A stretch of DNA of 64,000 bases, taken from NCBI GenBank assembly GCA_902827205.1, contig LR792634.1, positions 1,116,001 to 1,180,000 on the forward strand, given 5' to 3'. Below the pieces are notes generated by a model. It was given only the letters and a program-made list of their open reading frames with translations. It was not told the DNA's origin and ran no database searches. Below are positions 47,497 through 58,000 of the stretch, one piece after another; positions within the stretch are counted from its first letter, which is position 1, and each line of letters starts with the position of its first letter. Made by a program: the position numbers and the translations under genes. The DNA is from Methanocaldococcus lauensis (lineage in GTDB: Archaea > AGJL01 > Methanococci > Methanococcales > Methanocaldococcaceae).

Positions 47497-48243
47497 ATGA
47501 ACCAAACACTTAAAAAACTTATTATAGATCCGTTAATTTATCCTTTTTATAGAGAAAATTATAAAAAAACATTATTGGGTGGCTTAATAATTCTTTCTCT
47601 CTGGGTCTTAACTTTATTTCCAAATATTTTATGCTATATCTTCTTTGGTGGTATTGTTGGAATTTTTATATTAGGATACTGCCTTACCATTTTTATATAC
47701 ACTCTTAAAAATATAGACACTCTTCCAACCTTAAAAAATAAGGAAATATTTTCTAATGGTTTTAAAATTTTTGTAGTTATATTATTTTTATCTATTCCGA
47801 GTTTATTAATATGTCTATTTTTGGTAGAGTCATATATTCTAAAATTTTTAATCTGGATTTATATATTATTATCTTTAATACTACTTATATTTGTCTGTCT
47901 GTTATTTCCATATCCAATTTCTACTGAAACACTTTTATTTATTCAAAACTATGATGTTAAGTTATTTATAATCTTAGCAATTTTTTATTATTTCTTACCG
48001 CTAATAGTTTTTAAATTATATAACAAAAAAATAAGAATTAAAAACTTAGTTAAAGTTTTAATTTTTCCTAAGTATGTTTTAATTATTGGAATGTCTCTGA
48101 TTTATTTATTATTTCTTCTAAAAGTTGCTATTTATTTAATGTTTTTAAAATCTTTCATTGTTTTTTATCTTCTTATTGTAATAGCACGAATGTTCGGAGT
48201 TTATTTTAGAGACGAAATAAAAATAGAGATAATGAAACTATAA
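47497..48243 (+). CDS. DUF4013-like polytopic membrane protein
   Basis: 248 residues. The N-terminus IIDPLIYPFYRENYKKTLLGG is the DUF4013 start. About six hydrophobic helices follow: ~30-50, 52-75, 90-112, 113-140, 150-172, 190-225. It is Phe, Ile and Leu rich. Function is unknown. It is divergent from the GTPase gene, with 110 bases between. Confidence 0.72.
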   Translation: MNQTLKKLIIDPLIYPFYRENYKKTLLGGLIILSLWVLTLFPNILCYIFFGGIVGIFILGYCLTIFIYTLKNIDTLPTLKNKEIFSNGFKIFVVILFLSIPSLLICLFLVESYILKFLIWIYILLSLILLIFVCLLFPYPISTETLLFIQNYDVKLFIILAIFYYFLPLIVFKLYNKKIRIKNLVKVLIFPKYVLIIGMSLIYLLFLLKVAIYLMFLKSFIVFYLLIVIARMFGVYFRDEIKIEIMKL

Positions 48244-48386
48244 ACTTAGCAATTAACTTATTATAGAACCATGGCACAATTTTTAAATATTATTACATTT
48301 ATCTAAATTTTTAATAATAATTCAAAATATTTTAAAGATTATTTAATATTTAAATTTCCAAATTAAAAAATAGTATAGTGATACGC

Positions 48387-51300
48387 ATGGCAGATAAAAA
48401 AATAAAGATCTTTCTCATTTCAACTGTTGTAAATAAAAGTATTGTAAAGGCTATTGGAGATGTTAAAGAATATGCAGATGTTAAATTAATATTTGCCCAT
48501 GAGATGAACAAATACAACCTCCAAGAACTTATCGATTGGGCTGATATTGTTTTGATTGATGTTAGGGGCGATGCATTAGCACTTACTGAACTTGATTATA
48601 AAGATAGGGATGTTATTGCATTAGTTGGAGGTTCTTCTTTATTTTCCATTGCAAAACTTGGCAGTTTTAAGATGAGTAAAGTGAAAGGAGCCAATATGTC
48701 CTATGGAGGAAATCCTGAAAGTGTGAAGATATGGATAAACAGAATGCAAAAGATTATAGAAACTGCAGGGAAAATTTTGCCTTTCGGTGTCTTTAAAGAT
48801 GCGAGAAATTACATTAGAATTGTAAGGTATTGGGCAAATGGGGGCTATGAGAATTACAAAAACATGTTTCTATTCATTTGCAAAATAAAAGGGGCCAATA
48901 TTAAAGTTAAGATTAAGGACCCAATAGAATATCCAGAAATTGGGCTATATCATCCAGATTATGGATATAATTATAAACCTCAAATTGACCCAAATAAGCC
49001 AACTGTTGGGATAATCTTTTATGGTGGGATGCATTTAGAGTCTTGTGAGCCAACACTCAAAGAAATTATTAATAGATTAAATGCTAATGTTATCCCTGTT
49101 TGTTCAGATGGAATTGTAAATTTAAAGGCAATGAGAGAATATTTTAAAGATAAGGATTTAGATGCCATAATTAGTTTATTGTGGTTTAGGTTAAATGGAG
49201 GACCATTAGGTGGAAATCCAGAGCCAACAATTAAACTTTTAAAAGAAATGAAAGCAAAATTATTCTGTCCAGCAATGATGATAATGCAAGAAATAGAGGA
49301 TTGGGAGAGAAGTGAGAGGGGATTAAATATTCTTCAAACAATAACTACCGTTGAGATGCCAGAAATGGATGGTGGGGTTGAGCCGATTCCTATTTGTGGG
49401 GTAGAAGGTTGTGACGTAGTTCCAATAATGGATAGGGTTGATAAATTTGTTAGTAGAGTAAATAGATGGATAAATTTGAAGAGGAAGCCAAATAAAGATA
49501 AAAGAATAGCAATTATCATTTACAACTATCCTCCAGGAGAGGAGAATCTTGGTAATGCAGCATATATAGATACCTTTGCAAGTGTTGAAAGAATTCTTGA
49601 AAGACTAAAAGAGGAAGGCTATAATGTTGAGAAAACCAAAAAAATAAAGGATATATTTGTAGAGAGAAAACTCTTCAATCCAAAATTTTATCCTCCAGAG
49701 GAAATTGAATGCCCAAGGATGAGTGTTGATGAATATCTAAGATATTCCAATGAATTGCCAGACGAATGCAAAAGAGATGTTATAAAGTATTGGGGAGAAC
49801 CACCAGGAAATATAATGGTTGATGACAAGGGCATTTTAATCCCCGGCGTTATTTTAGGAAATATTTTCATTGGAGTTCAACCTTCAAGACCTCCGTTAGA
49901 TAATAAGGATATAAATTCAGCAATTCACGACCTAACTAAGCCACCTCATCACCAATATATTGCATTCTATAAATAGATTGAGCATATTTTTAAAGCAGAT
50001 TGCATCATTCACCTTGGAACCCATGGATTAGCAGAATTTATGAAAGGGAAAGAGGTTGGGCTGAGCTCAAAATGCTTCCCAGACATTTTAATTGGAACAA
50101 TGCCACATCTATATGTTTATCATGTCATTAACACTTCCGAGGCAACAATAGCAAAGAGAAGGTTATATGGGACATTGATAAGTTACAACTCCCCACCATA
50201 CACAACATCTGAACTTTATGATGAATATGCAAAACTTGAAGAGCTTTTAAATGAATATAGGGATGCATTAATAAAAGATAAGCCAAGGGCAGAGATAGCA
50301 AAGAAAAAAGCGTTAGAGCTTGCAAAGAAGTTGAATCTTGGAAATAATTTAGATGAAATAGAGGCAAAACTTTATGAATATAAGAGGGCAATAATCCCAA
50401 AAGGTTTGCATATAGTTGGGGAAAAATACAGTTTGGAAGATTTAGAGGAATTTATAACCATTATAGCAAGATATGATAGAGGAGAAATAAAATCACTAAA
50501 TAGATTAATTGCTGAAAAGAAAGGATTAAAATATGAGGAATTAACACCTAAAGAACTTAAAGAAATTGATGAAGAGGCAAAAGAAATTGTAAAAAGATTC
50601 TTAAATGGAGAAAGATTCCCAGAGTATGAAAAAACATTAAAATATGCTTATAATGTTGCTAAAAAATATGCAGATAACTCTTTGGAAATCGAAAATTTAA
50701 TTGAGGGTTTAAACTCATTCTATATTGAGCCATCTGTTGGTGGAGATGTGATAAGGAATCCAGAGGTATTACCAACAGGAAGAAACATTTATGCCTTTGA
50801 CCCATTAAAAGTCCCAACAGAATCTGCTGTTGAAAGGGGAAAATATATAGCCAAAAAAACCATTGAAGAATATTTAAAGAGATACAACAAATATCCTGAA
50901 TCTGTTGGTGTGGTTCTTTGGGGATTTGAGACAGCAAAGACCTATGGGGAGACAATTGCCCAAATCTTAGAATACATTGGAGTTAGAGTTATTCACAAAA
51001 CCCCTTGGGAAAAGGAACTTGAAGTAATTCCACTTGAAGAACTTGGAAGACCAAGGATTGATGTTGTTGTTACAATTTGTGGTTTCTTTAGAGAGATGTT
51101 CCCAAATGTTATGGAACTGCTTGATAAGGCATTTAGAATGGTTGCAGAACTTGATGAACCAGAAGATATGAATTTTATTAAAAACCATGTAAAAGAGATG
51201 GCTGATTATGGAGATTTGGCAAAGGCAAGGATTTTTGGACCTACTGCTACAGAATATAACACAAGACTCCTCCAACTTGTTGAAGATAGTGCTTGGAATG

Positions 51301-51941
51301 ATGAGAGAGATTTGGCCGAAGCATATATTTCATCAATGTGCTATGCATACACAAAGGGACATTATTCAAAAGAAGCAAGAGGGGTTTTTGAAAATCTCTT
51401 AAAAAATGTTGAACTTGTTTCACAAGTTAGAGATTGTCACGACTATGATATAACTGATTTAGACCACTATTACGAGTTCTTTGGAGGTTTATCAAAATCC
51501 GTTGAAATTTTGAGAGGGAAGAAACCAGAAATGCTCATAGCAGATACTACAAAGGAGGTTGTGAAAGTTGAGAATATCAAAGATTCAATAGAGAGAGGAA
51601 CTATAACAAGAACCCTCAATCTAAAATGGATTAATGAGATGTTAAAACATGAATTCCATGGAGCCCAGAAAATTGCTGAAAGAATTGAGAATCTATTAGG
51701 ATTAGATGCAACAACTAATGTTGTTGAAAATTGGGTTTGGGATAGGGTTGCTGAAAAATTTGTATTTGATGAAGAAATTTTTGAGAGGTTGAGGGAAAAT
51801 AACATCTATGCTACCAAAGAAATCCTCGAAAGACTTATAGAGGCTGAGAGAAGAGGTTATTGGAAAACAGATGAGGAAGTGATTGATAAAATAATTAAGA
51901 AATATCTTGAATTGGAGGGAATGCTGGAAGATGATGTTTAA
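48387..51941 (+). pseudogene. cobN: Cobaltochelatase/magnesium chelatase large subunit (CobN/BchH type), interrupted by in-frame TAG
   Basis: From ATG 48387 to TAG 49974-49976, then open in the same frame to 51941. The first part (529 residues) holds the H-subunit N-terminal and central blocks, such as PTVGIIFYGGMHLESCEP and IIIYNYPPGEENLGNAAYIDTF, and ends LTKPPHHQYIAFYK. Past the TAG comes IEHIFKADCIIHLGTHGLAE, then GKEVGLS and over 600 residues more. The family usually has Trp at the TAG position, so TGG to TAG explains it. Total length (~1184) is as expected. It inserts cobalt in B12 synthesis or metal in related tetrapyrroles. No other damage was seen. The second half has its own ATG (50040) but no good ribosome site. 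Confidence 0.88.
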
Positions 51942-52122
51942 TTTTCTCTACAAAAAATAATTGTAATAAAGAAGTTTTTAGGATCAAAACTTAATAGATA
52001 ATATTTTTACAAACTACAAAGTATATATTTAACCTAAATTAATAAGCATATATAAATAAAATAATTACATAAAATAAATATTATTACTATACTTAACTTA
52101 AAATTATTGTTAGGTGATAATT

Positions 52123-56481: not shown

Positions 56482-56591
56482 ACAATTAACTTTAGATATT
56501 ATCTTCTCTTTTTAATTTTGCTAAATTTTCCTCATTTTATTAAAAATTTAAATCCATTTTTAGTTCTAATCTTTAAGTAATGGTGATTATT

Positions 56592-57366
56592 GTGAAAATC
56601 TGGAATAAAATCAATGGAATAACTCTAATAAATGATGATTTTTTAAATGTGAATTAGCCTAAGAAGAGTATTGATTTAATAGTTACTTCTCCTCCCTATA
56701 ATGTAGGAATTGACTACAACCAACACGATGATACAATTCCCTATGAAGAATACTTAGATTGGACAAAACAATGGTTAAAGAAGGCATTAACACTTTTAAA
56801 AAGATGGACGACTTTGTTTGAACATTCCGTTAGATAAAAATAAGGGAGGTATAAAACCAGTTTATGCGGATATAGTCAAAATTGCTTTAGATGTTGGATT
56901 TAAATATCAAACAACAATAATATGGAATGAACAAAATATATCAAGAAGAACAGCATGGGGCAGCTTTATGAGTGCCTCTGCCCCTTATGTTATTACCCCA
57001 GTTGAAACTATTGTAGTATTATATAAAGAAAGTTGGAAAAAGATTTCAAAAGGAGAATCTGATATAACAAAAGAAGAATTTATTGAATGGACAAATGGTT
57101 TATGGACTTTTCCAGGAGAGAGTAAAAAAAGAATAGGACATCCTGCACCGTTTCCATTAGAACTCCCAAAAAGATGTATTAAACTTTTTAGCTATGTGGG
57201 GGATACTGTTTTAGACCCATTTTTAGGTAGTAGAACAACAGCAATAGCTGCATATAAATTAAGAAGAAAAGCTATTGGTGTGGAAATAGACGAAAAATAT
57301 TTTGAATTAGCAATAAAAAGAATAACAAGAGAATGTTGCACTTTGGAGGGTATATTATGGAGATAA
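56592..57366 (+). pseudogene. Degraded type II DNA methyltransferase (SPPY, beta class)
   Basis: GTG 56592 follows GGTGAT. The frame reads to TAG (56655-56657), then VTSPPYNVGIDY (motif IV, typical of N4-cytosine or some N6-adenine enzymes). A frame change at an A-run (56798-56802) joins DGRLCLNIPLDK to the second part, which is intact to 57366. That part has GLWTFPGESKKRIGHPAPFP and the late motif I DPFLGSRTTAIAA, so the order is beta class. Two lesions argue for an inactive gene unless either is a sequencing artefact. It overlaps the endonuclease start. Confidence 0.85.
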
Positions 57367-58000
57367 CCAACATATCTAAGATTTTAGAAAAAGAAAGAGA
57401 AAAATACATCAAAAATAAAGTTGAAGAATATTTAAAACAAGGTTTTTCCAAAGATGATGCGATAAATAAGGCAAATCAATCGTGGAGAACCTATATTGGT
57501 CATAGAATTCAAGATGTAATTTATAATCTTCTCAAAAAATTCTTAGAAAATAGTGAATTAAAAGTAACAACAGACAAAGTTTTAAGTAGTCAAAATCTAT
57601 CTGAAGAGTTAGATAAAGTTAAATGATTGATAGCAGTAAGTTACGGCAAATACTTATTCCTTCCAGATGCAGATATTATCATTTATAAAGTTGAAAATAA
57701 TAATGTGAGAATAATAGCAATTATTTCAGTTAAAAATTCTTTTAGAGAAAGAGAATTCGAAACAACATATTGGAAACTAAAATTAAAAGAATCTCCTGTA
57801 ACTTCCCATATAAAGGTATTTTTATAAAGATAATGAAATTTCATATAAATGTCCTAATGGAAAGCCTAAAAAAATGAGGATAATTTTAGAATACGAACTT
57901 GATGGAATATATTTCCTAAAAGGACTTTGAAGAAACAGAAAAAGCAAAACATTTTGAAAAAATTGTTGAAGATATTATAGAAATTTCTAAGAAATTATAA
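57357..58000 (+). pseudogene. Degraded type II restriction endonuclease (PD-(D/S)xK type)
   Basis: ATG 57357 has GGAGGG upstream and overlaps the methyltransferase end. The frame contains KANQSWRTYIGHRIQDVI, then an in-frame TGA (57624-57626), then LFLPDADIIIYK and IIAIISVKNSFRER, which resembles a PD-(D/E)xK core with Ser at the second acidic position. After KVFL at 57824 a frameshift is needed to reach DNEISYK and later KPKKMRIILEYELDGIYFLK, and another to reach DFEETEKAKHFEKIVEDI. The original stop is at 57998-58000. With three lesions it cannot be functional. Confidence 0.85.

Follow-up and report, generated by a model that had tools for sequence, protein, structure and literature searches.

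The chelatase locus at 48387-51941 is very probably a very young pseudogene, created by a recent null mutation in an accessory gene for a BchH/ChlH-type chelatase H subunit. It lies within the 64,000-nucleotide stretch of Methanocaldococcus lauensis DNA analysed here (the window). Recent null mutation was one of several options listed in the original prediction, and it is the best supported of them: the stop is found only in this genome (G000), and the relatives carry TGG. The gene has a single stop, redundant paralogs, a sister strain that dispenses with it, a history of recent exchange and no recognisable means of rescue (Table 1). The locus appears to be a recent pseudogene of the ordinary kind, and neither a threat to vitamin B12 synthesis nor a special decoding trick. 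It resembles other nonsense pseudogenes of accessory, horizontally exchanged genes in its single derived stop, its redundant paralogs, its absence from a sister strain and its raised ratio of replacement to silent changes; only its youth and the repeated loss of the gene in relatives stand out.

Table 1. Features of the interrupted chelatase gene and its surroundings (window coordinates)
Feature	Position	Strand	Remarks
Membrane protein gene	47497..48243	+	No Pfam match; within the exchanged, strain-variable segment
Segment missing from same-species strain G041	47567..52011		4.4-kb gap in the comparison
5' part of BchH/ChlH-type chelatase H-subunit gene	48387..49973	+	Codons 1-529
Nonsense mutation TGG to TAG, Trp530 (W530*)	49974..49976	+	Derived; G000 only
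3' part of chelatase gene	49977..51941	+	Codons 531-1184 and TAA
HLGTHGLAE	50010..50036	+	H546 and E550, past the TAG and ahead of the first ATG
First ATG past the TAG, Met552	50040..50042	+	Best Shine-Dalgarno-like match GGA, 12 bases upstream
Glu585	50139..50141	+	Counterpart of catalytic Glu660 (E660) of Synechocystis ChlH
His1027 of DLDHYYEFFGG	51465..51467	+	Second active-site His motif

A single derived stop in an open frame

When the TAG is counted as a residue, the locus reads as one frame of 1,184 codons belonging to the CobN/ChlH family, and a scan of this frame found no further stops or frameshifts. The frame begins with an ATG preceded by GTGA five bases upstream, and an in-frame GTG is present at 48378. 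The halves align to successive stretches of the PF02514 profile (positions 2-416 for the 529-aa half and 418-1089 for the 654-aa half), confirming that a TAG breaks an otherwise open frame; codons 1-529 comprise the head and neck domains and the beginning of the body. Trp had been described as usual at the stop site, and residue 530 is indeed Trp in all four subclade orthologs (TGG in G009, G001 and G005; Trp in G015), with Trp or Tyr at this position across the wider family. Because the orthologs carry Trp, the TAG is a derived single transition, one G-to-A change. Comparison with other Methanocaldococcus genomes, which had been proposed as a check, thus gave TGG in the close relatives and no stop with a conserved ribosome site at the second half; the G009 ortholog is intact over its full length.

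A consensus sequencing error, with a real codon of TGG and an intact gene, would account for Trp in every subclade ortholog that covers the site and for the intact remainder of the frame, as a single base suffices. This is improbable: the change is a substitution and not the commoner indel error, the genome is a single contig with 99.4% completeness, the ortholog has also been struck by nonsense or loss in other genomes, and the G000 branch carries further unusual changes. Polarised using G005 and G001, the replacements on this branch are E24G, K115I, W530*, K933N, P1079L and A1107D, alongside four silent codon changes. The ratio of replacement to silent changes is 5:4, or 6:4 with the stop counted, versus 94:291 for G000-G001 (Fisher p 0.048 and 0.020, respectively). 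Two of the five replacements, at K933 and P1079, fall at sites whose conservation among distant members is at least 90%, versus 4 of 90 G001-G009 differences (p 0.03). The original claim of no other damage therefore misses two G000-only replacements at near-invariant positions. Both tests, although made with small numbers, point to relaxed constraint of the kind expected after loss of function, a pattern that makes a mere sequencing error less likely; with a very recent import into G000, some of the G000-only changes may be older than the import.

Family identity and paralogs

The interrupted gene had been taken for an otherwise intact cobN split by a TAG; the split stands, and the cobN identity does not. 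The read-through protein scores 926.1 bits over its full length against the BchH model TIGR02025 (curated cut-off 829), and it falls under the cut-offs of the CobN models TIGR02257 (650.6 bits; cut-off 822) and NF004643 (629.5 bits; cut-off 1926). It shares with CobN the common Pfam family PF02514, but the CobN models are passed instead by the two other paralogs of G000. The gene is thus a third, BchH/ChlH-type paralog and not the cobN of this genome. This membership denotes the protein family only, and no role in (bacterio)chlorophyll synthesis is claimed.

The solved structure matching best is the Mg-chelatase subunit ChlH (4zhj), and alignment to it was used to assign H546, E550 and E585. 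The active-site residues of ChlH have been named as H621, E625, E660 and H1174 (PMC13297055). H546, in the HLGTHG motif, is the active-site His invariant across the superfamily and is equivalent to H621 of Synechocystis ChlH and His-538 of HmuS, and E550 is equivalent to E625; H1027 probably corresponds to H1174. Unlike a BchH acting in its usual pathway, the G000 copy bears a stop and is accompanied by no sign of the next Mg-porphyrin step, as a profile search of G000 for BchM (TIGR02021) returned background methyltransferases only, all under the cut-off.

The heme dechelatase HmuS (9d26; PMC12583661) belongs to the same class I chelatase superfamily, and both of its described active-site His motifs (HxGTHG and LDHxxEFxGG) are kept in the M. 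lauensis gene. Substitution of the first of these His residues (H538A) abolishes turnover in HmuS, and the function of archaeal CobN/ChlH/HmuS-like proteins has been stated to be unclear (PMC12583661). A further likeness is that distant orthologs of the G000 gene adjoin uptake transporters. HmuS is further marked by a Met-rich insertion and by the heme ligands Met-79 and His-254. However, the G000 protein is 1,184 aa in length versus 1,463 for HmuS, the Met-rich insertion is not seen (no stretch of 60 residues has more than 6 Met), and the hmu operon is absent from the surrounding window.

A search for a second cobN/bchH copy, as suggested previously, identified exactly two further PF02514 genes in G000, both uninterrupted and 37% identical to the interrupted gene. 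One passes the CobN model TIGR02257 and also, by a smaller margin, TIGR02025, and the other passes the CobN model NF004643. A maximum-likelihood tree places the three H-subunit types in well-separated clades; its main forks are fully supported but are to be read with caution since long branches meet there. With two intact CobN-type paralogs, the loss of an essential cobN was rejected. The argument that such a loss would be serious, since methanogenesis requires cobamide, finds no support, given these paralogs and a same-species strain (G041) that lives without the gene.

A ChlI/D AAA partner is encoded elsewhere in the genome, by the single ChlI/D gene of G000 (G000:C1:221463-223408), and the interrupted gene stands without ChlI/D or transporter partners in the window. 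The ChlI/D frame changes at a run of nine A (A9), TTAAAAAAAAACATGATGTAA. Published fs-chlD genes have the same programmed-frameshift arrangement (PMC9227772), which is here observed in Methanocaldococcus.

Search for rescue of the stop

Functional UAG readthrough, whether by a suppressor tRNA, Pyl insertion or leaky termination, would yield the full-length protein, and the frame downstream of the stop is open with its active-site residues intact; an open frame is expected in any case given the youth of the stop. The proposed check for a CTA-anticodon suppressor and Pyl genes found neither in G000. None of 36 tRNA hits has a CUA anticodon, so a suppressor tRNA was rejected; the anticodon loops of the two intron-bearing hits left unnamed by ARAGORN contain CAT (Met) and CCA (Trp). 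A PylS profile search of G000 returned only background class-II synthetases under the cut-off, which exactly one of 14 control genomes exceeds. Among the ORFs of the window, TAG also terminates four others of at least 120 aa.

The stop is likewise not conserved in any relative. The G005 copy has a TAA at codon 24, on a contig of about 2.6x coverage; the copy in G015, from another family of the same order, is 92% identical, with a stop at codon 409 and a match ending at codon 775; and G006 retains a 191-codon remnant containing a TAG. The orthologs of these other lineages are thus broken too, and the positions of their stops argue against a conserved recoding site. A TAA flagged in G036 was discarded as lying outside the aligned gene. 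Programmed readthrough and a Pyl gene were rejected on these grounds, and functional readthrough of any kind is very unlikely.

The two halves might also be produced separately and then reassemble. The superfamily may contain a precedent for divided H subunits: the CobN-like gene at L034:7630-11428 comprises two ORFs, of 776 and 491 aa, that overlap, and it could represent either a naturally two-chain protein or a MAG frameshift. The L034 split, however, lies about 200 residues further on, between overlapping ORFs. In G000 the second half has no plausible start. The first ATG, 22 codons past the TAG, has no Shine-Dalgarno site, in agreement with the earlier remark that no good ribosome site precedes the second half, while neighbouring genes have GGTGA-type sites, and a product begun there would be without H546 and E550. 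An internal start was rejected for both reasons, and two functional chains are very unlikely.

The disruption is thus absent from the orthologs, with no recognisable rescue by recoding or restart. In the young pseudogene, translation would end at codon 529, leaving a fragment that lacks the active site and hence presumably no chelatase.

Recent exchange and loss of the segment

Over 3,549 aligned bases, the chelatase genes of G000 and G009 show 12 differences (dS 0.007), whereas the two genes immediately downstream (RPA-like) differ at 10% of bases (dS 0.45-0.55). The near-identity spans 47,875, where the G009 contig ends, to about 51,925, near which it falls off. The segment has been recently exchanged between lineages, and the TAG is younger than the exchange.

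In strain G041 the gap is bordered by flanks 97.7-98.4% identical to G000, with a transposase-like insertion, judged by eye, at its left edge; only the first ~66 bp of the membrane protein gene are retained, at 84.5% identity. In the simplest history, with the direction of the G000/G009 exchange as we infer it, the orthologous segment was lost in G041 and was exchanged or imported into G000 (or G009) once the strains had separated. Full-length copies were found among the searched genomes of the genus only in G000, G009, G005 and G001, beside the remnant in G006. The gene is dispensable: the segment is missing in its entirety from G041, and most members of the genus carry no full-length copy. 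The accessory H-subunit gene would thus have been exchanged among Methanocaldococcus lineages through recombination at one chromosomal site, the exchanged gene then being hit by the single G-to-A mutation W530*.

Another segment of the window (56482-57998) is also missing from G041 and contains an ORF resembling a truncated DNA methyltransferase (56818-57366). The G005 copy (L085:350-3904) is a mosaic in which stretches identical to G000/G009 alternate with stretches matching G001, a pattern that points to recombination or to a mixture of strains in a low-coverage MAG.

Gene neighbourhoods and possible former role

MAG contigs with the labels Archaeoglobaceae, Thermococci and Deltaproteobacteria carry orthologs of about 80% identity, each followed directly downstream by a ChlI/D-type gene, and the Archaeoglobaceae-labelled contig has FecCD-type transporter and binding-protein genes upstream as well. 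The neighbours of a 42-44%-identical relative in G036 include ECF-type transporter genes of the CbiQ family along with ChlI/D. The row at L081:8088-16213 of this genome reads ChlI/D, ECF S-like, CbiQ-family T, double ABC ATPase and BchH-like, an order that, as read from the genes, links the chelatase with an uptake transporter of unassigned substrate. A pre-mutation role follows from family membership and from these operons, in which the H-subunit gene is accompanied by a ChlI/D motor and by uptake transporters of FecCD or ECF type: the protein probably acted on a bound tetrapyrrole, placing a metal in it or taking one out with power from the shared ChlI/D AAA motor.

It is conceivable, though unlikely, that the BchH-type gene moves between hyperthermophilic methanogens by recombination at a single site and that selection inactivates it time and again. 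One reason might be that an orphan H subunit, lacking a motor or transporter of its own, interferes with the resident CobN-type chelatases, which presumably share the single ChlI/D motor with it. If so, the broken state would be a selected outcome and not drift. With the locus read as an ordinary young pseudogene, a false lead is removed, whether of essential cobN loss or of UAG recoding in a methanogen. The strains also form a natural knockout series of modest value, in which the gene is intact (G009, G001), stopped (G000) or deleted (G041) and which could be compared for tetrapyrrole content and for metal or heme use.

Other apparently decaying H-subunit paralogs

H-subunit paralogs decay repeatedly in the genus. 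In G041, the ortholog of the NF004643-type cobN (L117/L118; G041:C1:1424786-1427331) is 95-98% identical to the G000 copy (L084) and apparently shifts frame twice, near residues 318 and 1086, which reflects either a genuine loss or an assembly error. In G010, a CobN-type paralog (L079:5373-7852; G010:C1:1267408-1269842) is reduced to multiply disrupted debris, which adjoins the same neighbour genes as the G000 copy (L083).
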